Shown here piece by piece: positions 2,163 to 10,679 of a stretch of 33,709 nucleotides of DNA. The position numbers and the translations under genes are program-made. Under the pieces are notes generated by a model, which was given only the letters and a program-made list of their open reading frames with translations, was not told the DNA's origin and did no database searches. Numbering within the stretch: the stretch's first letter is position 1; each line of letters opens with the position of its first letter. Origin of the DNA: an uncultured Opitutia bacterium (GTDB lineage: Bacteria > Verrucomicrobiota > Verrucomicrobiia > Opitutales > Opitutaceae); contig CAIJZY010000040.1 of the NCBI GenBank assembly GCA_903825285.1, positions 1 to 33,709 of the forward strand. The letters run 5' to 3'.

Positions 2163-3254
2163 CTAGGACGGCGGGACCACGGTCTGGCCGGGCGCGGGGC
2201 GGTAGGCGACGCCTTTCTCCTGCTGGATGATGTCGAGTTCGTGGTCCGTGAGATAATACCGGCCCTGCGGACCGTGATTCGAATCGAGCACCTCGAACCA
2301 CTCCTGCCCATCGTGGGAGAAGGCCTTGGTGACCACGATCTCGTGCGCGCCGCGGCCGGCGGAAGGATAGACATTGACCAGGATCGGCCGGCCGGCGCGG
2401 AGGGTGGACGCGAACGCGTCGTGCGACACGACCTCGGCCTCGCCGAGCATCTCGGCCAGCATGATGACCTCGCCGCCGTTGAGGCCGATGCGCTCGATGG
2501 TTCCCTGCGGGTCGGCGTGCTCCGCCCCGGTGCGCCAGTGGCCCTCGCGCAGGAGCTGCGTCGCACGGGCCGCGACCACGCCATACGGCTGGTTGGTCGC
2601 GCTCGCGAGGGCGAAGACGGCGCAGTCATCAAAGTTAGTCTGCTGGCCGGCGCCGATCGCGCCTGGACCCGCGGCGCGGGCCGCCGCGGCCAGCGCCGGG
2701 TCGTCGCCGCGCGCCTTGATGGCCTGCCAGGTCAGCTTGACCTCGCCGACGGTCGTGGGCGCGCCGTCCACGCTGAGCGCGTGCAGCGCCGCGTCGAGCC
2801 GGTCGCGCTTCTCCTGGCTCCAGCCCCACTGCGCGGCGAGAGCGTTGAGGCCGTCGATCACGCGCTGTCCCTTGACCTCAGGGTCCTCCGCGGCCGGGGC
2901 CGCCGCCTGCTCGCGCGCCACCTGGGCGACGCGGGCATTGAAGCGGTCCGCGTCCTCCACGATCGCGTTCGCCTCCTGCGTGAGCTCGGCCTTGCGCTGG
3001 GCGGCCGCGGCCGCCTGCGGCGTGCCCACGCGCGTGCCCGCGAACGCGCTCGCGAACTCCGCCCGGTGCGACTGGAAGGCATCCCAGCGCGCCTGCAGCG
3101 CCGCGCGCTCGCCCTCGAGCCCCGACCGCGCCGCCTCAGGCCAGCCGGCGGGCACCGGGGACAGCTCCAGCGTCTGCGCGAGGAGCGCCAGCGGTCCGAC
3201 CGCGAGGAGCAGTCCCGCCCAGCGGAGAGGCCGGAGAAGGCCGGAAAATATCAT
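2163..3254 (-). CDS. Secreted C39/papain-like cysteine peptidase-like protein
   Basis: 363 aa. An N-terminal signal or anchor segment (about residues 8-26, hydrophobic, ending LLAQT) is followed by a helical, Ala/Glu-rich region (about 40-195, likely coiled coil). The C-terminal domain looks papain-fold: Gln205, then Cys211 in NFDDCAVFALA (a six-residue offset, as between papain Gln19 and Cys25), a repeated-helix middle, His304 in GAHEIVVT, and Asp324/Asn326 in VLDSNHG. This matches C39-like peptidases, but no ABC transporter is attached. Catalysis is inferred from the motif set, not from a confident family match. The start overlaps the stop of the coiled-coil gene (ATGA, 3251-3254), indicating translational coupling. 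A target might be a neighbouring gene product, but nothing shows which. Confidence 0.6.
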   Translation of the reverse strand: MIFSGLLRPLRWAGLLLAVGPLALLAQTLELSPVPAGWPEAARSGLEGERAALQARWDAFQSHRAEFASAFAGTRVGTPQAAAAAQRKAELTQEANAIVEDADRFNARVAQVAREQAAAPAAEDPEVKGQRVIDGLNALAAQWGWSQEKRDRLDAALHALSVDGAPTTVGEVKLTWQAIKARGDDPALAAAARAAGPGAIGAGQQTNFDDCAVFALASATNQPYGVVAARATQLLREGHWRTGAEHADPQGTIERIGLNGGEVIMLAEMLGEAEVVSHDAFASTLRAGRPILVNVYPSAGRGAHEIVVTKAFSHDGQEWFEVLDSNHGPQGRYYLTDHELDIIQQEKGVAYRPAPGQTVVPPS

Positions 3255-4609
3255 GGCTGCTTGGCGGCCGGCACGGGCGAGGGCGGCGCCGGGACGTTGA
3301 GGTCCGTCGGCGGGTGCTGCGCCTTGGGCGTGATGGTGAGATCCATGAGCTGCGAGCCCTCGGCGAGCTTCAGGCCGACGCCCGCCATGTTGGCATCCGC
3401 CTGGGCCTGGGCGATGCCGTTGACGACCTCGGTCCAGGCCTCGGGCTTGGCATCGGCGCCCTGCTGGAAGATTTCCCGCCGCCGCTGGTAGAGCGCATCC
3501 AGCTTGGTGAACGCGTCCGTGCGCTGCTGCGCGAGCGCCTGCAGGACCGGGCTCTGCTTCACGGCCGCCGGCGCATCCTCGCGCGCCGCCGGGGCCGGCG
3601 GGACCACGAGCGGCACGGCGTCGGCCGGCGAGGCCTCCGGGGTCGCGACCGAGGGCAGGTCCGCCTTGCCCAGGCCGCCGCCGGTGTCGAATTCATAGCC
3701 GCTCTGGGTCTTGCCAACGGGGGCGGAGGCGTCGACGGTTTCGGCGCCGCTGACCGAAGACGCCACCACCACGCGCACCTGATCGAGGGCGTGGGTGTTG
3801 CTGCCCGGGCCAATCGGCGGCTTCACGACGGGAACCGTGCCCGCGTCCTGCGGGGCCACGCCGTGGGAGAACGGCGTGAGCGGCACCGCCACGGTGGCGG
3901 GGAGCGGCTGATTGTCGGCCGCCTCCAGCGCCTCGGCCATCGGCGCGCGCGACTCGACATATTGGTTCGCCGTCTCCTGAAAACGCGCGGCCGCCTGCTC
4001 CCGCTTGGTCGCGGTCTCGCTGTATTCCTGCTGGGCCTTGGTCCAAAGCTGCAGCGCGGCATCGAGCCGCTCCTTGAACTCCCGCCGGCCTTGATCAAGC
4101 CGCGTGTTCAGGGCATTGCGCCGCGCCTCCAGCGCCTCCCATTCGGCGTACTTCGCCAGATAGGCGGCATGCTCCTCCTTGGTGAAGCTGAGCTGTCCGC
4201 TACGATAGACCGCCACGGCCTGATCGAGCGCCGCCACGTCCCGTTCGCCGTCCCGGTTCCAGTCCTCAAATTCCTGGCGCAGCCGATCCACCGCTCGCTC
4301 CTTGGGGCCGAGCTCCATGTCCTTGAGATACTGGAGCCGGCTGTCCTTCGTGCCGATCTCGTCGGCCTGTTCCTTGAGGTCGGACAGCAGCGACTTCAGC
4401 TTGGCCTCGGTGGTCTCGAGCGTCGCCAGCCGCTGCTCCCCCTCCGGCGTGGTCCGGAGCGAGTAGCGGTGCTGCGCGAGCTTGCTGGCGAGAAAGGCCA
4501 CGTCGCGCTCGTACCGCTCGGTGGACGGCGCCTCGGCGCGCGCAGCCGCCGCCAGCGCCAGCAGCAGGACGAGGCGGCCCGCGAAAAACCTGGGCAAGTG
4601 CGTCGTCAT
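3251..4609 (-). CDS. Secreted coiled-coil protein of unknown function
   Basis: 452 aa, family not recognised. A Sec-type signal peptide (residues 1-25, ending AARA) is followed by a long charged helical region of about 30-215, rich in Glu, Arg, Ala and Leu with heptad-like spacing, likely coiled coil. A low-complexity Pro/Ala/Val/Asp stretch (about 215-345) contains a Gly-rich patch, EFDTGGGLGKADLP. A second helical part (about 345-410) and a Pro-rich tail complete it. It probably acts as a periplasmic scaffold or adaptor; this is inferred from composition only. Both ends overlap neighbours by 4 bp: its ATG overlaps the stop of the DUF805/Sel1 gene and its stop overlaps the ATG of the C39-like gene. 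The three proteins are therefore likely made in fixed proportion. Confidence 0.7.
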   Translation of the reverse strand: MTTHLPRFFAGRLVLLLALAAAARAEAPSTERYERDVAFLASKLAQHRYSLRTTPEGEQRLATLETTEAKLKSLLSDLKEQADEIGTKDSRLQYLKDMELGPKERAVDRLRQEFEDWNRDGERDVAALDQAVAVYRSGQLSFTKEEHAAYLAKYAEWEALEARRNALNTRLDQGRREFKERLDAALQLWTKAQQEYSETATKREQAAARFQETANQYVESRAPMAEALEAADNQPLPATVAVPLTPFSHGVAPQDAGTVPVVKPPIGPGSNTHALDQVRVVVASSVSGAETVDASAPVGKTQSGYEFDTGGGLGKADLPSVATPEASPADAVPLVVPPAPAAREDAPAAVKQSPVLQALAQQRTDAFTKLDALYQRRREIFQQGADAKPEAWTEVVNGIAQAQADANMAGVGLKLAEGSQLMDLTITPKAQHPPTDLNVPAPPSPVPAAKQP

Positions 4610-6210
4610 TTCGCGTCGCCTCCTTCCTGATGCTTCAGAAATTCGCTCACCACCAGCGGCCGCGGCGCGCTCACAATGTTCTGGGCGAGCGCATCCACGA
4701 CAGTCTTCCGATAGTCCGCGTCAGAATCCAGCTGGTCCACATGGACGCCGTTGTCGGTGAGCTTCGACCCGCCGACCGCGTACTCGAGGGTTGGCTTGCC
4801 GCCCTCGGGCGTCACCACCTGCGCGGCCTGCGCATCGGTCCGCATCGTCTGGAGATACTGGCCCACCGCGCGGCCCTCGTCGGACGCCGCCCAGGACGGG
4901 TCCGCCTGGCTGCGCTCCGCGTAGGCGGTGTTGAGCGCGACGTACTCGGGCCGGGCGCGGACGCTTGCCAGGACCTCCTCGCCGAGTCCGGCGGCGGTCT
5001 CGGCCGGCGGATTGTCGGCCGGGGCCGGCGTCTCGGTGGTCTCCGGCGTCTTGGGCGGTTCAACCGGGGCCGGCGGCGTGATTGGGTCGGGCTTGCCCTG
5101 CGCCAGGCGGCCGAACACCTGCGTGGTGATTTCCTCCAGCGTCTCCGGGGGCACGGTCGCCCAGACGTGCTGGAGCAGCCCGCCCACGGTCTCGGCGCCG
5201 CCGCGCCGCGCGCTTTCGAGGTAGTAGAGGGCGAGGGTCAGGTTTTCCTTGCCGTCGCCCTGCTCGCGGCGCGCCAGGAACATGGAGCCCAGCAGCGACT
5301 GGGCCCACGGGTCGCCCGCGGCCGACGCCTCCTCCCACAGCAACTTCGCCATCTCGCGGCCGGACTCATCCGACTCCTGCAGCAGCCCGAGCAGCGTCTT
5401 TGCGGGCACGTAATTCTGCGCGACAGCCGCCTGCAGCAGGGTCTTCGCCCGGGCCGGGTCGGCCGGCACGCCCAGGCCGTAATAGTACAGCACGGCCAGG
5501 TCATACTGGCCCTGGGCCAGGCCATGGTCGGCGGCCCGCTCGAACCAATGCGCGGCGCGCGCAAAATCCTGCGGCACGTCCTGACCGGTCCGGTAGCGCC
5601 AGGCCAGCGCCTGGCAATCGGCCGCCGAGCCCAGGCTCGCCCGCATCCAGCTCCGCCGCACTTCCCAGGTGTTTCCCGGGACAAACACGAAAACGATCGC
5701 CGCCAGCAGGACCGCCAAGACCGCGAGCCCGAGCATGGCGGCCAGCAGGCGTTTTCCCCCGCGGGATTTCGGCGCGGAGGGTTTGGCCGGCGACAGCAGC
5801 GGCGGCTCCGTGGCCGATGGTGGCGAGGGCGGCGGGGGCGGCGGGGGCGGGGCGACCGCCACACCCGCGGCGTCAAAGCGATTCGGCCCGGCGGTGCCCT
5901 TGATGAATCCCAGGTAGATGACGGCCACGAGCAGGCCCAGGAACGGGATGAAGTTGATCAGGACCATCCAGCCCGTGCGGTCCAGGTCGTGCCAGCGCTT
6001 GACCTGGGTCGCGAGCGACAGCCAGCACGCGGCCCCGGCGCCGGCGATGCCCAGGAGAGCGCCGATGATCGCCGCGACCTGGCCGAGGGGGGCAAGCGCG
6101 CCGATCAGCGCGACCGACAGCACCAGCGCCAGCATCGCACCGCACCAGTACAGCCAGAACTGGCCGCGGCGAATGCGTCCCTGAAACGAGAGGCACCGGG
6201 GTACTTGCAC
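4606..6210 (-). CDS. DUF805 and Sel1-repeat membrane protein
   Basis: 534 aa from a GTG at 6210; an in-frame TTG at 6246 would add 12 residues, and the start is uncertain. Domains: DUF805 at about 8-113 (FQGRIRRGQFWLYW, then membrane helices, KRWHDLDRTGW, and the closing GTAGPNRFD); a Pro-rich linker with eight consecutive prolines; a further membrane helix (about 154-178); and two to four Sel1/TPR-like repeats (about 194-343, e.g. ARAAHWFERAADHGLAQGQY). A Pro/Thr/Glu-rich linker and a helical C-terminal domain follow. The Sel1 part should lie outside the cytoplasm or across from DUF805, depending on helix count. Sel1 repeats mediate protein-protein contacts, so this may be the membrane anchor for the two secreted proteins encoded next. 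Confidence 0.8.
   Translation of the reverse strand: MQVPRCLSFQGRIRRGQFWLYWCGAMLALVLSVALIGALAPLGQVAAIIGALLGIAGAGAACWLSLATQVKRWHDLDRTGWMVLINFIPFLGLLVAVIYLGFIKGTAGPNRFDAAGVAVAPPPPPPPPSPPSATEPPLLSPAKPSAPKSRGGKRLLAAMLGLAVLAVLLAAIVFVFVPGNTWEVRRSWMRASLGSAADCQALAWRYRTGQDVPQDFARAAHWFERAADHGLAQGQYDLAVLYYYGLGVPADPARAKTLLQAAVAQNYVPAKTLLGLLQESDESGREMAKLLWEEASAAGDPWAQSLLGSMFLARREQGDGKENLTLALYYLESARRGGAETVGGLLQHVWATVPPETLEEITTQVFGRLAQGKPDPITPPAPVEPPKTPETTETPAPADNPPAETAAGLGEEVLASVRARPEYVALNTAYAERSQADPSWAASDEGRAVGQYLQTMRTDAQAAQVVTPEGGKPTLEYAVGGSKLTDNGVHVDQLDSDADYRKTVVDALAQNIVSAPRPLVVSEFLKHQEGGDAK
5827..5850 (-). other. Eight-proline codon run / G-rich strand
   Basis: Eight consecutive Pro codons lie between the DUF805 and Sel1 parts of the membrane protein. 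Poly-Pro runs of this length stall ribosomes unless EF-P acts (established knowledge). The complementary plus strand carries four closely spaced runs of 3-5 G, a potential quadruplex in the template strand. Confidence 0.6.
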
Positions 6211-6319
6211 GGCTCCCGGGATGGCTGATGCGCGGGCCCATGGCAATCACGATGCGGCCGCCGTCCCGGCATCGACAAAGCCGTCCGGTTCCTCCAGCGT
6301 CCGCGGCCGTCGCCCACCC

Positions 6320-7267
6320 ATGTCCCCCGCCGCCCCCGCCCCCCGGCCCATCAGCAAGTCGGAATTTGTCGACTCCACGCCGCTCCTCTCCGATCCCGCC
6401 GCCCTGCAGGCCCGCGCCGAGGAGGACGGCTACCTGTTCTTCAAGCGCCGCCTGCCCCGGGAGGAACTGCTCGCGATGCGCGCCGAGATGCTCGCGGTCG
6501 TCGACAAGTACGGCTGGCGCCAGCCGGGCCAGGACGCGCTCGGCGGGCTGATTGACTACGACGCCATCAACCGCGTCACCGAGGAGCAGATGCACCGCAC
6601 CGACGTGGGCGTCACGGCCGACGCCTACCACGACATCCAGCGGCTCGAGCGCTTCCACCGCATTCCCCACCACCCGCGGCTGCTCGCGATCTACCGCGCG
6701 CTCTTCAACCGCCCGGTGTTCGTGCACCCGCGCCACATCGCGCGGCTCGTCACCCCGCACACGTGCATGGTGCCCACGCCGCCGCACCAGGACTTCCCGT
6801 ACATCCAGGGCACCACTCACACCTGGACCGCGTGGTTCCCCGTCGGCGACTGCGCCCGCTCGCTCGGCGGGCTCACCGTGCTGCGCGGCTCGCACCGCCA
6901 CGGCTACCTGCCCGTCCAGCCGGCGAAGGGCGCCGGCGGATTCGCCGTGCCGCTCTGCCCGTCGGAAACCGAGTGGATCGAGGGCGACTATGAGACTGGC
7001 GACGTGCTCACCTTCCCCAGCCACACGATCCACAAGGCCCTGCGCTGCCAATTCAAGGACCGCATCCGGCTCTCGATGGACGTGCGCTACCAGCCGGCCG
7101 ACGAGCCGATCGAGAGCCGCTCGCTCAACCCGCACTGCCCGCTGACCTGGGACGAGATCTACCGCGACTGGCAGCACGACGACCTGAAGTACTACTGGAA
7201 AGACCTCCCGCTGAAGCTCAGCCCGTGGGACGACGGCTACCTGACCCCGAAGCGGCGGATCTGCTAG
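6320..7267 (+). CDS. Phytanoyl-CoA dioxygenase (PhyH) family protein
   Basis: A 315-aa Fe(II)/2-oxoglutarate-dependent oxygenase of the PhyH family. The iron facial triad is visible: His156 and Asp158 in PPHQDFPY and His238 in SHTIHKAL. Arg248 or Arg250 in DRIRLSMDVRYQ is placed to bind 2-oxoglutarate. The ATG at 6320 is preferred to an in-frame ATG at 6221 because the upstream 33 codons read as low-complexity Pro/Arg/Ser sequence without family similarity. Bacterial members hydroxylate varied small molecules, and the substrate is unknown here. The gene is alone on its strand, divergent from the DUF805 operon and convergent with the cbiX-like gene. Confidence 0.85.
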   Translation: MSPAAPAPRPISKSEFVDSTPLLSDPAALQARAEEDGYLFFKRRLPREELLAMRAEMLAVVDKYGWRQPGQDALGGLIDYDAINRVTEEQMHRTDVGVTADAYHDIQRLERFHRIPHHPRLLAIYRALFNRPVFVHPRHIARLVTPHTCMVPTPPHQDFPYIQGTTHTWTAWFPVGDCARSLGGLTVLRGSHRHGYLPVQPAKGAGGFAVPLCPSETEWIEGDYETGDVLTFPSHTIHKALRCQFKDRIRLSMDVRYQPADEPIESRSLNPHCPLTWDEIYRDWQHDDLKYYWKDLPLKLSPWDDGYLTPKRRIC

Positions 7268-8100
7268 ACGCCGCGCGAGCGCGCGGCCCGGTCCGCCAGG
7301 ATCTCGACCAGCCCGGGGTGATCCCCGAGTAGCCTGGTCCGCGCGACCCGCAGCCGCGGTTGCCTCGCTCGCGCTGCGCGCACAATCGCCGCGATGTCTC
7401 CGTCCGGGCCGGCATGGCGCCCGGGCAGCAGGAAAAGCTGTGCCACGACGACCGGGCCGGCGTTGAACGGCGGCGTCGCGAGCAGGTTCGCCAGCAGCGG
7501 CTCGTTGAACGCGTACGCCGGCCCTGGCCGGCGCTCCATGCTGGCCGCGCGCACGCCCGCGACGGCGCGACCCAGCCGCCGGCGCAGCTGCGCCGCGAGG
7601 CGATTGCGCACCTGCGTGACCGCCCGCACCGGACTGCCGTGGTCAACCAGCACAACCCGCGCCTTCACGCCGCGGAGAAAGGCGGATTTCAGCCGCGCGC
7701 GCACCTGCGCCTCCAGCAACTCGACCAGACGCGGGTCCGCCGTCGCCGCCAGCGGAACCGCCAGCCGGACCCGCAGGTCCGGGTAACGTCGCCGCACATT
7801 CGCCACGCTCGCTGGCAGAAATTTTGTGATCGCCTGGCTGCGTCCGAGAAACAGCGGCACGATCAGGAAATCACGCGCCCCCGCCGCCGCGCGACGGCGC
7901 AATGCCGGCTCCAGTGTTTCGGCCGGACGTCCGCCCAGCGCCTTCGCGGGCACCTTGTCCGAGTACAGCAGCGAAACGGGTTCCACCGGCCGACCCAACC
8001 GCCGCCCCAGCGTTGCGGCCAACCGGCGCAGTCCGCGGACCGCCGCCGGACGCAGCGAGCCGTTGTCCACCAACAGGACGGTTGCAGCCGAGGCGGCCAT
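7264..8100 (-). CDS. Sirohydrochlorin chelatase, duplicated CbiX/SirB-like
   Basis: 278 aa containing two tandem CbiX-type domains. It probably inserts Fe2+ into sirohydrochlorin to make siroheme for the sulfite reductase encoded nearby; CbiX relatives also insert cobalt. The second half keeps the metal-binding histidines (His154 in LVDHGSP and His229 in LLPGRHAGPDGDI). The first half has VDNGS (Asn13) and FLGRSQ (Ser88) at the same places, so it has lost both and is probably structural. The start is 6 bp from the cobA stop, so the two form an operon. Its stop overlaps the stop of the PhyH gene. The chelatase role is supported by the siroheme context, while metal choice is inferred. Confidence 0.8.
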   Translation of the reverse strand: MAASAATVLLVDNGSLRPAAVRGLRRLAATLGRRLGRPVEPVSLLYSDKVPAKALGGRPAETLEPALRRRAAAGARDFLIVPLFLGRSQAITKFLPASVANVRRRYPDLRVRLAVPLAATADPRLVELLEAQVRARLKSAFLRGVKARVVLVDHGSPVRAVTQVRNRLAAQLRRRLGRAVAGVRAASMERRPGPAYAFNEPLLANLLATPPFNAGPVVVAQLFLLPGRHAGPDGDIAAIVRAARARQPRLRVARTRLLGDHPGLVEILADRAARSRGV

Positions 8101-8106
8101 GCAACC

Positions 8107-8913
8107 TCAGCGTCCCGCCGCGCCAGCCGTGCGGACCTCCGCCATGGCGAGCGGCAGGACCTCGGCGATCCGCACCACCTCGCCCACGATGATCAGCGCC
8201 GGCAGGCCCGGCTCCGGCGTCAGCGTGGCCGCCGCGTCCAGGTCCGCGATCCGGACCGTCTGGTCGGGAAGCGTGGCCCGCGTCACGACCGCCACCGGCG
8301 TGCTGCCCGCGAGCCCGCCCGCGCGCAGTTCGGCCGCGATCACTTCGAGCCGCCGCCCGCCCATATAAATGCAGAGTGTCGCGCCCGTGCGCGCCAGCGC
8401 GCGCCAGTCCACTGATGCCGCGGGTGTCTTGCCGTGACATTCGTGGCCGGTCACGAACACGACCGCGGACGCGTATCCGCGCTGCGTGAGCGGAATTCCC
8501 GCCATCGCACCCGCAGCGGCGGCCGCCGTCACTCCCGGCACGATCTCAAAGGGAATCCCCGCCTCTGCCAGCACTCGGGCTTCCTCCCCGCCCCGGCCAA
8601 AAATCAGCGGATCCCCGCCTTTCAGCCGCACAATATGACGCCCTTGACCGGCCTCCCGGACCAGAATCTCGCCAATTTCCTCCTGCGAGGTGCAGTTCTT
8701 CCCCGCGCGCTTCCCGATGTAAATCCGGGTCGCCTCCGGCGGGCAGAAGTCCAGTAGCTCCGTATTCGCCAAGTCATCGTATACCACGACATCTGCCTCC
8801 ATCAGAGAATGTTGCCCGCGCAGCGTGATCAGATCGATCGCTCCTGGACCTGCGCCGACCAACGTCACCCGGCCGATTGCGTCATAGGACTGGATTGCTT
8901 CTTTACTGGACAT
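8107..8913 (-). CDS. cobA: Uroporphyrinogen-III C-methyltransferase (SUMT)
   Basis: 268 aa. Transfers two methyl groups from SAM to uroporphyrinogen III to give precorrin-2, the first step of the siroheme and cobalamin branch. Family motifs: VGAGPGAIDLITLRG (residues 19-33), RLKGGDPLIFGRGGEE (about 96-111), IVPGVTAAAAA and PLTQRG. There is no N-terminal precorrin-2 dehydrogenase/ferrochelatase part as in E. coli CysG; ferrochelation is supplied by the cbiX-like gene 6 bp downstream, and the dehydrogenase must lie elsewhere. It diverges from cysI across a 50-bp AT-rich intergenic region, so siroheme supply and its main user are probably co-regulated. Confidence 0.93.
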   Translation of the reverse strand: MSSKEAIQSYDAIGRVTLVGAGPGAIDLITLRGQHSLMEADVVVYDDLANTELLDFCPPEATRIYIGKRAGKNCTSQEEIGEILVREAGQGRHIVRLKGGDPLIFGRGGEEARVLAEAGIPFEIVPGVTAAAAAGAMAGIPLTQRGYASAVVFVTGHECHGKTPAASVDWRALARTGATLCIYMGGRRLEVIAAELRAGGLAGSTPVAVVTRATLPDQTVRIADLDAAATLTPEPGLPALIIVGEVVRIAEVLPLAMAEVRTAGAAGR

Positions 8914-8963
8914 TAATCCACTACATTAGTTCATTAGTCATTTAATCAACTATAAAGTACGCG
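8914..8963. promoter_or_regulatory. Divergent cobA/cysI promoter-operator
   Basis: A 50-bp strongly AT-rich gap in a GC-rich window. TATAAA (8951-8956) ends 7 nt before the cysI ATG, a good -10 box whose start site would fall on or next to the ATG. Related octamers CATTAATC (8911), CATTAGTT (8924), CATTAGTC (8932) and ATTTAATC (8940) suggest a repeated operator. AGTTCATT (8928-8935) also occurs before the Rrf2 gene (15049-15056). Promoter activity and operator role are inferred. Confidence 0.6.
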
Positions 8964-10679
8964 ATGCCCAACCCCTCTCTTGCCACTCCGACCAAGAACG
9001 AGCTCCTGAAACAGGAGATTCCGACCCTGGCCGGAAACATTGCCGGCACCCTGGCGGACCCGGTGGCTGATCGCTTCAGCGAGGATGACGAGCAGTTCCT
9101 CAAGTTTCACGGGGTCTACCAGCAGGACGACCGTGATCTCCGCAAAACGGGCAAGAAGTACATGATGATGATCCGTGGCCGGATCCCGGGTGGCGTGATG
9201 ACGGCGGCGCAGTGGATCGTGTTTGACGACCTCGCGACAAACTACGGCAACCAGACCCTGCGCCTCACGACGCGCCAGAGCATCCAGTTCCACGGGGTGC
9301 TCAAGTCCGGCCTCGGTGCGGTCATCCGGCACATCAACGAGTCGCTGCTTTCCACCCTCGCGGCCTGCGGCGACGTCAACCGCAACATCACCGCCTCGCC
9401 CACGCCCGCGTACACGCGCGCCCGCGAGCAGGTCTTTGCCGACAGCGTGCGCCTGGCGCATGCGCTCGCGCCGCAGACGCAGGCCTACCACAGCATCTGG
9501 ATCGAGAACGTGCAGCTGAACCTCGACGAGCCGGCGAACAAGGACTTCGTCGATCCGCTCTATGGCCGCACCTACCTGCCGCGGAAGTTCAAGGCGTCGT
9601 TCGTGATCCCGCCGGTGAACGACATGGACGTCTACACGAACGACCTCGGGTTCATCGCCGTGGTCGAGCAGGACGAGCTGATCGGCTACAACCTCGCGGT
9701 CGGCGGCGGTATGGGCCGCAGCCACGGCAACGTGCAGACCTTCCCGCGGCTGGCAGACGTCATCGGCTTCCTCCCGCCCGAGCAGGTGGTCGAGGTCGCC
9801 AAGGCCGTGCTCACGATCCACCGCGACTTCGGCGACCGCACCAACCGCAAGCACGCGCGGCTGAAGTACGTGGTCGAGGAGCAGGGCGTGCCGTGGCTGG
9901 TGGCGGAGATCAACCGTCGCATCGCGCGGCCCCTCGCCGGCGTGCGCCGCTTCGAGTTCACCACCACCGGCGATCGCTACGGCTGGCACCGCGCCATCGA
10001 CGGCTCGCTGTTCCTCACGCTGTTCGTGGAGACCGGCCGCATCAAGGACGCACCCGGTCACGCGATGAAGACGGCGCTGCGCCGGGTCGCGGAGAAGTTT
10101 CCGCACGTGGAGTTCCGGCTCACGGGCAACCAGAACGTCATCCTCGCGAACGTCCCCACCGCCGACCGCGCCGGCCTGACCGCGCTGCTCGCGGCGCACG
10201 GCGTGAAGGTGGACCAGCAGGCCTCGATACTCCACGCGGCCGCCATGGCCTGCCCCGCGCTGCCCACCTGCGGCCTGGCCCTTGCGGAGTCCGAGCGCAT
10301 GCTGCCCGGCCTCCTCGACCGCATCGAGAAGCTCGGCGGCGAGCTCGGCCTGGGCGGCGAGGAAATCGTCATCCGCTCCACCGGCTGCCCGAACGGCTGC
10401 GCTCGTCCCTACATGGCCGAGATCGCGTTCGTCGGCAAGGCGCCCGGCCGCTACCAGCTCTGGCTCGGCGGCAACGCCGCCGGCACGCGGCTCAACCGCG
10501 TGCACAAGGAAACCGTCAAGGACGCCGACATCGAGGCCGAGCTGCGTCCGCTGTTCACCCGCTGGAAGGAGGCGCGCACTGCCGGCGAGCGCTTCGGCGA
10601 CTTCGCCGCCCGCGTGCTCTGGCCGGAGACCGCCGCGGCCGCCGCCGCGGTCGCGGAACCCGGGATTCGGGATTCGTAA
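8964..10679 (+). CDS. cysI: Assimilatory sulfite reductase hemoprotein subunit
   Basis: 571 aa. Reduces sulfite to sulfide with siroheme and a 4Fe-4S cluster. Cluster cysteines Cys430, Cys436 (ACPALPTCGLAL), Cys475 and Cys479 (TGCPNGCARP) match the C-x5-C...C-x3-C pattern and nearly the numbering of E. coli CysI. The two sulfite-reductase repeats are present (e.g. LRLTTRQSIQFHG near 100-111). N-terminal start residues resemble CysI rather than plant-type ferredoxin enzymes, but no CysJ flavoprotein is in the window, so the electron donor is open. The last residues EPGIRDS and the stop codon fall in a repeated-word element (10660-10722). First gene of cysI-cysH-cysD-cysN. No Shine-Dalgarno is evident, and the transcript may be leaderless. 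Confidence 0.93.
   Translation: MPNPSLATPTKNELLKQEIPTLAGNIAGTLADPVADRFSEDDEQFLKFHGVYQQDDRDLRKTGKKYMMMIRGRIPGGVMTAAQWIVFDDLATNYGNQTLRLTTRQSIQFHGVLKSGLGAVIRHINESLLSTLAACGDVNRNITASPTPAYTRAREQVFADSVRLAHALAPQTQAYHSIWIENVQLNLDEPANKDFVDPLYGRTYLPRKFKASFVIPPVNDMDVYTNDLGFIAVVEQDELIGYNLAVGGGMGRSHGNVQTFPRLADVIGFLPPEQVVEVAKAVLTIHRDFGDRTNRKHARLKYVVEEQGVPWLVAEINRRIARPLAGVRRFEFTTTGDRYGWHRAIDGSLFLTLFVETGRIKDAPGHAMKTALRRVAEKFPHVEFRLTGNQNVILANVPTADRAGLTALLAAHGVKVDQQASILHAAAMACPALPTCGLALAESERMLPGLLDRIEKLGGELGLGGEEIVIRSTGCPNGCARPYMAEIAFVGKAPGRYQLWLGGNAAGTRLNRVHKETVKDADIEAELRPLFTRWKEARTAGERFGDFAARVLWPETAAAAAAVAEPGIRDS

Follow-up and report, generated by a model that had tools for sequence, protein, structure and literature searches.

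The DNA analysed here (the window: 33,709 nucleotides, contig CAIJZY010000040.1) stems from an uncultured Opitutia bacterium of the Opitutaceae and carries, on the minus strand at 2163-6210, a triplet of open reading frames encoding a DUF805-Sel1 membrane protein (the scaffold protein), a coiled-coil protein and a third protein with a papain-like C-terminal domain. A preliminary description made from the sequence had reported exact overlaps of 4 base pairs (bp) between the three genes, and ATGA indeed spans both junctions; the positions it gave for residues Q205, C211, H304 and D324 of the third protein were likewise correct. Related triplets occur in other genomes of the family, where the C-terminal domain of the third protein is exchanged. 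Genomes are given by label, G000 being the window's own and G011 a member of the same genus (g1).

Three overlapping genes on the minus strand

The features of the locus, with lengths in amino acids (aa), are as follows.

4606-6210, minus strand: scaffold gene, DUF805-Sel1 membrane protein (open reading frame; 534 aa from GTG at 6210, or 546 aa from TTG at 6246)
5872-6192, minus strand: DUF805 domain, residues 7-113 (Pfam; present in G000, G011, G453 and G491, another membrane part in G374, G458 and G492)
5680-5736, minus strand: last transmembrane segment, residues 159-177 (hydropathy)
5521-5610, minus strand: best Sel1 repeat, residues 201-230 (Pfam)
4609-4983, minus strand: C-terminal extension of the scaffold, kept in G011 and G453, absent from G374, G458, G492 and, judged by eye, G491
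4606-4609, minus strand: ATGA overlap of scaffold and coiled-coil genes (junction sequence; AGGAGG upstream of the coiled-coil ATG)
3251-4609, minus strand: coiled-coil gene, 452 aa (open reading frame; found in 7 of 252 family genomes)
3251-3254, minus strand: ATGA overlap of coiled-coil and third genes (junction sequence)
2163-3254, minus strand: third gene, 363 aa, secreted protein with the putative docking domain and a papain-like C-terminal domain (open reading frame, sequence comparison)
2925-3173, minus strand: N-terminal domain (N-domain), about residues 28-110, the family's constant module, for which we infer a docking role
2166-2672, minus strand: papain-like domain, residues 195-363 (alignment, domain model)
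2640-2642, minus strand: codon of Q205, which we take to be the oxyanion-hole Gln (invariant in 4 of 4 papain-like proteins)
2622-2624, minus strand: codon of C211, putative nucleophile (invariant in 4 of 4, and in all four the only Cys beyond the signal peptide)
2343-2345, minus strand: codon of H304, putative catalytic His (invariant in 4 of 4)
2283-2285, minus strand: codon of D324, putative third residue (D, E, N and D in G000, G011, G491 and G201)

Both domains assigned to the scaffold protein in the preliminary description exceed their Pfam cut-offs, DUF805 (PF05656) with an expect value (E) of 2.1e-23 and 83.3 bits against 25.7, and Sel1 (PF08238) with E 8.6e-15 and 55.1 bits against 30.7. 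Its start is most likely the GTG at 6210, where the relatives align. Hydropathy, from which all transmembrane segments and signal-peptide-like starts given here were taken, predicts four membrane segments, the last one ahead of the Sel1 part. Lys and Arg residues are more frequent before than after this last segment in all seven triplet scaffolds (in the window protein four in the 15 residues before it and three after), and owing to this small charge difference the Sel1 part is probably periplasmic. Far below the cut-offs, NCBIfam gave weak matches to MerG (E 3.4e-5, residues 190-243) and to ExoR (E 0.013, residues 211-277), a periplasmic Sel1/TPR scaffold or regulator.

The coiled-coil protein features a signal-peptide-like start, a long helical-looking part, a Pro/Ala-rich middle and a conserved C-terminal part; no Pfam family was found above cut-off, and weak matches pointed to SMC and ELKS. 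The third protein likewise starts with a signal-peptide-like segment and has no Pfam family above cut-off. With 0.695-0.717, measured in steps of 1.5 kb, the guanine plus cytosine content of the triplet stays inside the range of the window (0.663-0.718) and therefore gives no sign of recent transfer.

A conserved triplet with exchanged C-terminal domains

Conservation of the triplet outside its own genome had been set as a test beforehand. A narrower set of 57 genomes, with the own one counted, yielded both the coiled-coil and the third gene in G000 and G011 alone; the G011 triplet shows the same order and overlaps (ATGA and GTGA) at 56-60% identity and with other flanking genes. A coiled-coil profile run on the family set of 252 genomes (own included) matched seven, namely G000 and G011 (g1), G374, G453 and G458 (g53), and G491 and G492 (g16), and the neighbourhoods of all seven were read: in each, the coiled-coil gene closely follows a gene for a Sel1 membrane protein and is itself closely followed by one for a related secreted protein. 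Gene order is kept in all seven genomes, from three genera, and the view of the triplet as an accident of its own genome was rejected. The first junction is a 4-bp overlap in six of seven triplets (21 bp apart in G492) and the second in four, the exceptions being G374 and G492, where the chosen starts leave a gap of 4 bp, and G458, where the genes abut if the first ATG is the start.

The distribution of the triplet is sporadic. In a draw of 387 genomes sampling the phylum, the coiled-coil profile matched only G000 and G374; a match in G075 (E 7.3e-4), a lone protein of coiled-coil look, was dropped as a chance match. Searches of viral contigs (three profiles), plasmids (coiled-coil protein) and phages (third protein) gave nothing useful. 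In the tree of the seven coiled-coil copies, DUF805-type and other-membrane-type copies are split with support of 99/99 and the papain-like type is grouped with 82/85, while the scaffold tree (six of the seven copies) has the same first split (100/100) and the N-domain tree has one well-supported inner branch out of five. Since g16 and g53 each have members on both sides of this split, the operon either moved between lineages or existed early in two types, of which some lineages lost one or both. The scaffold gene left out of the tree, that of G491 (L054:6579-7943), contains an ambiguous base and continues in another frame, probably through an assembly fault, and its two pieces were scanned separately in Pfam.

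Sel1 exceeds the Pfam cut-off in all seven scaffolds and DUF805 in four; its replacement in the other three means that the membrane part is swapped, too. For the third proteins, an all-against-all blastp found a common N-terminal part of ~110 residues followed by three C-terminal types: papain-like (G000, G011, G491), type A (G374, G458, G492; 39-72% identity over 310-339 residues) and type B (G453 alone). Between types, matches over the N-domain range from E 2.5e-19 (G453-G491) to 0.04, and blastp gave no significant match between the C-terminal parts; types A and B may still be distantly related. A type A profile matches only its three sources, and the non-papain C-terminal types, called helical by eye only, have no Cys common to all. 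In the full-length model of the window protein, the N-domain comprises helices 40-70 and 79-117, with predicted local distance difference test (pLDDT) block values of 74-93 over residues 31-110. Weak PADLOC matches of the third proteins of G453 (DrmD, 7.4e-5) and G374 (DruD, 0.016) were read as coiled-coil similarity. Directly after the third gene, two type A operons carry a membrane protein gene (L042:6331-7461 and L052:5618-6715; 75% identity within the pair), of which the G374 copy matches no Pfam family at E 1 or below; no such gene was seen after the other triplets.

The N-domain recurs in a second class of operons. A profile of the seven N-domains gave five further weak matches (E 4.3e-6 to 3.0e-4) in G000, G011, G169, G433 and G528, and the gene upstream encodes TPR repeats by Pfam in four of them (G011, G169, G000 and G528), whereas the fragment upstream in G433 matched nothing in Pfam. 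These TPR proteins have a tail that, by eye, is coiled-coil-like and Pro-rich, and the junction is a 4-bp overlap in three of five cases (G000:C31, G011:C25, G169), with gaps of 7 bp in G528 and 21 bp in G433. When N-domains of both classes were compared without their signal peptides, hhalign returned a probability of 94.1% and a score of 42.7, against a mean of 10.3 and a maximum of 16.0 in 200 column shuffles (maximum of a first set, 19.6). Conversely, a second-class N-domain profile (A17), for which four second-class rows were combined with G201, was used to search 45 distinct genomes: in 12 genus genomes it recovered second-class N-domains in G000 and G011 as well as the third genes of the window (E 3.1e-5) and of G011 (2.6e-7), with nothing in the other 10, and in a 35-genome family draw only G000 matched. 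The C-terminal domains of this class are FecR, which is known as a sensor or regulator domain and not as a toxin, in G169 (E 2.3e-10) and G433 (E 2.7e-12), an unnamed domain without Pfam match in G000 and G011, and another unnamed one in G528.

In their C-terminal domain, the second docking-domain genes of the own genome (L076:7886-8989, G000:C31) and of G011 (L077:6157-7263, G011:C25) share PGD...SH...CSE residues. These residues may point to a permuted papain or NlpC type, and the G000:C31 domain has the look of an NlpC/P60 or YiiX type; Pfam, NCBIfam and PDB sequences gave no match, and the domain was left unnamed. Near this operon, L076:10180-14178 encodes a large protein with many YD-type repeats, presumably RHS-like. 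In genus g49, the docking-domain gene is followed by a series of genes for secreted TPR-like proteins, which by eye are related (L078:6558-10489 in G528 and L041:7938-9995 in G201).

As for the surroundings of the triplet in the window, its 3' neighbour is a glyoxalase gene, and on the other side lies a divergent PhyH-family gene (6221-7267), whose listed start is 10 bases from the scaffold start and leaves almost no intergenic space unless a later start is used. The genes at 7264-10679 (CbiX-like, tetrapyrrole methylase, nitrite/sulfite reductase) probably serve sulfur assimilation of the ordinary kind.

The papain-like domain

A profile of the papain-like domain matched only four of the 252 family genomes, G000, G011, G491 and G201. 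The four proteins, with 41-56% identity of the relatives to the window protein, share Q205, D210, C211 and H304 without exception. The window protein has the Gln-Cys-His-Asp/Asn order of papain-like peptidases, and three of the four proteins fit it fully. The Gln205-Cys211-His304-Asp324 set proposed earlier accordingly holds for Gln, Cys and His, whereas residue 324 is Glu in one relative and Asn in another. In a low-confidence domain model, the secondary structure follows the papain order, with C211 near a helix start, H304 starting a long strand and D324 ending the next. Among the 50 Foldseek matches listed for this model, 31 have a probability of at least 0.90, and 18 of these 31 are papain-family proteases by name (a toxin pair, cathepsins, falcipain-2 and mite allergens). 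The papain fold is predicted from low-confidence models. The domain is most likely an active cysteine peptidase or amidase.

The preliminary description had called it C39-like, as in PCAT1 and ComA, which was not borne out: C39 is absent from the Pfam matches of the window proteins up to E 1 and from those of the four domain members up to E 10, a listing from which filtering removes most matches weaker than about 0.1. Neither does the 363-aa protein contain an ATP-binding cassette (ABC) exporter, and eight other window genes scanned include no ABC genes. A dedicated C39 protease system was consequently rejected, the domain being found in three of seven triplets and without any C39 match, and because of the low-confidence models and mixed fold matches the label is kept at papain-like. 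With C39 peptidases and Cpe1-type toxins the domain shares the residue order, the placement of Cys and His in the domain model and weak fold matches; it differs from them in the lack of a profile match, in the signal peptide and helical N-domain in front, and in the Glu of one relative.

The domain could also be a papain fold that is degenerate or serves for binding only, or else a transferase, with the operon as a structural scaffold. The variation of the third residue, the other triplet C-terminal types without a common Cys and the fact that Pfam, NCBIfam, PHROGs and PDB sequences gave no peptidase family above cut-off would agree with this. Yet the invariance of Q205, C211 and H304 at this level of identity, with C211 as sole Cys beyond the signal peptide in all four proteins, makes a non-peptidase unlikely.

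If the domain is a peptidase, the operon might be a dedicated protease switch, in which a cysteine protease of the periplasm is retained or set free by the membrane protein, as in the LapD/LapG precedent (PMC3032553, available text). In common with LapD/LapG and with Shewanella BpfD/BpfG, to which the likeness is one of analogy only, a membrane protein with a probable periplasmic part is combined here with a secreted papain-like protein, in this case in one coupled operon. However, up to E 1 Pfam finds no GGDEF, EAL or LapG-type domain in the three window proteins, a coiled-coil protein is present as third partner, and the output is exchanged between relatives: four of seven triplets lack a papain-like domain, and by the domain profile those genomes have none elsewhere among the 252 searched. 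A switch of this kind is therefore quite improbable. By the same count, the membrane-anchored protease complex with a scaffold that the preliminary description proposed stands as a conserved, tightly coupled unit of membrane scaffold, coiled-coil protein and secreted protein with the papain-like residue order, and falls as a dedicated protease complex, since the C-terminal domain of four of seven triplets is without detectable papain-like similarity and DUF805 is replaced in three.

Exchanged C-terminal domains behind a constant N-terminal part are also known from polymorphic toxins (contact-dependent inhibition, type VI secretion and Rhs systems), and the N-domain could accordingly target variable toxic C-termini, the papain-like one acting as an interbacterial protease toxin. 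The two best Foldseek matches listed are a papain-like toxin/immunity pair (9l5u; E 1.9e-3, template modelling score 0.37 by query length), followed by cathepsins with unrelated proteins mixed in, and a CdiA-CT toxin is among the matches listed as well. Cpe1 represents a papain-like interbacterial toxin family (PMC12136450), of which 9l5u is not shown to be a member in the available text of that article. Against antagonism, the Pfam matches of the proteins scanned include no PAAR, VgrG, Rhs or CdiA, and no constant downstream gene that could confer immunity accompanies the seven triplets (the next gene is convergent in G011, kinase-like and 231 bp on in G491, and the glyoxalase gene in the window). 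Moreover, FecR is among the outputs, and for the window third protein PADLOC gave nothing up to E 0.1 and PHROGs a best match of E 0.044. We consider antagonism very unlikely. Both the toxin and the LapD/LapG readings explain parts of the data and fail on the rest, namely on delivery and immunity genes, on FecR and on the other non-papain outputs.

A proposed modular envelope platform with exchangeable outputs

Taken together, the data argue for a modular envelope platform composed of a scaffold, a docking domain and exchangeable outputs, the output being papain-like in this genome, a reading to which we assign a probability of about 0.5. The polytopic inner-membrane protein would display its Sel1 repeats, probably to the periplasm, where the secreted coiled-coil protein would join the scaffold. 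The third protein would dock on this scaffold via its constant N-domain and thereby present an exchangeable C-terminal output, which in the own genome is most likely a Gln-Cys-His-Asp peptidase or amidase; it would act in the periplasm on envelope proteins or peptides, with the scaffold holding and controlling it. The three genes are probably translated in a coupled manner, which would provide matched amounts of the partners. Like ExoR-type proteins, the platform would have a Sel1 solenoid that is probably periplasmic; unlike them, it is anchored in the membrane by DUF805, and its coiled-coil and output genes overlap.

Several observations weigh against this reading. The sample consists of seven triplets, all from draft genomes, and complex formation and activity of the three proteins are deduced from their sequences. 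For some pairs blastp links the N-domains weakly (G011-G458, 0.001 to 0.04), and for G458-G491 it gave no N-terminal match; G458 is joined to the family by its 72% identity to G374. In G201, which was left out of the coiled-coil tree as it has no coiled-coil gene, a TPR partner replaces the Sel1 and coiled-coil partners of the papain-like protein, whose N-domain is of the second class, with a score of 56.8 (shuffles at most 17.4) as against 23.9 with the first class (shuffles at most 17.9). The tails of the coiled-coil protein and of the TPR scaffolds reach an hhalign probability of 1.8% and a score of 18.6, with 99 shuffles up to 17.3, and a common docking surface for both operon classes is therefore not established. 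Regarding the output, the Glu at position 324 in G011 and the missing peptidase match mentioned above count here as well. The AlphaFold models of the third protein, for which two sequences served as input, are of poor quality (mean pLDDT 53.6 and 50.0; predicted template modelling score 0.32 and 0.46), and in the full-length model C211 lies mid-helix and not near a helix start. Seven of the 31 confident Foldseek matches listed are chains of one WYL protein, none of the matches listed reaches E 0.001, and a search with VIA gave mostly papain-like chains with Z 5.9-8.2, within or close to what the tool describes as common.

More tentatively than for the window itself, both operon classes may belong to one undescribed class of platforms, in which Sel1 or TPR scaffolds with coiled-coil parts are combined with overlapping secreted genes that share the docking domain and swap their outputs. 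These would include the papain-like domain, FecR, at least two unnamed domains and two further triplet types. The preliminary description knew of no named system with this composition, and the literature search found none either: nothing was retrieved on DUF805 with Sel1 or coiled coils, on Opitutaceae with Sel1 or on FecR/tetratricopeptide operons of Verrucomicrobia. Going by titles and the beginnings of abstracts, papers on DUF805 with peptidases were off topic, the searched main text of one not containing DUF805, and those on papain-like proteins with Sel1 repeats and periplasm concerned Legionella secretion only.

For DUF805, whose function is unknown according to Pfam, the link to Sel1 repeats and to two secreted proteins, one a coiled coil and the other a defined client, provides a testable handle. 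If the docking reading is true, enzymes or sensors would be placed in the envelope in a modular manner, and the docking domain could be used as bait for further outputs. One and the same platform would then have been re-purposed by swapping its output.

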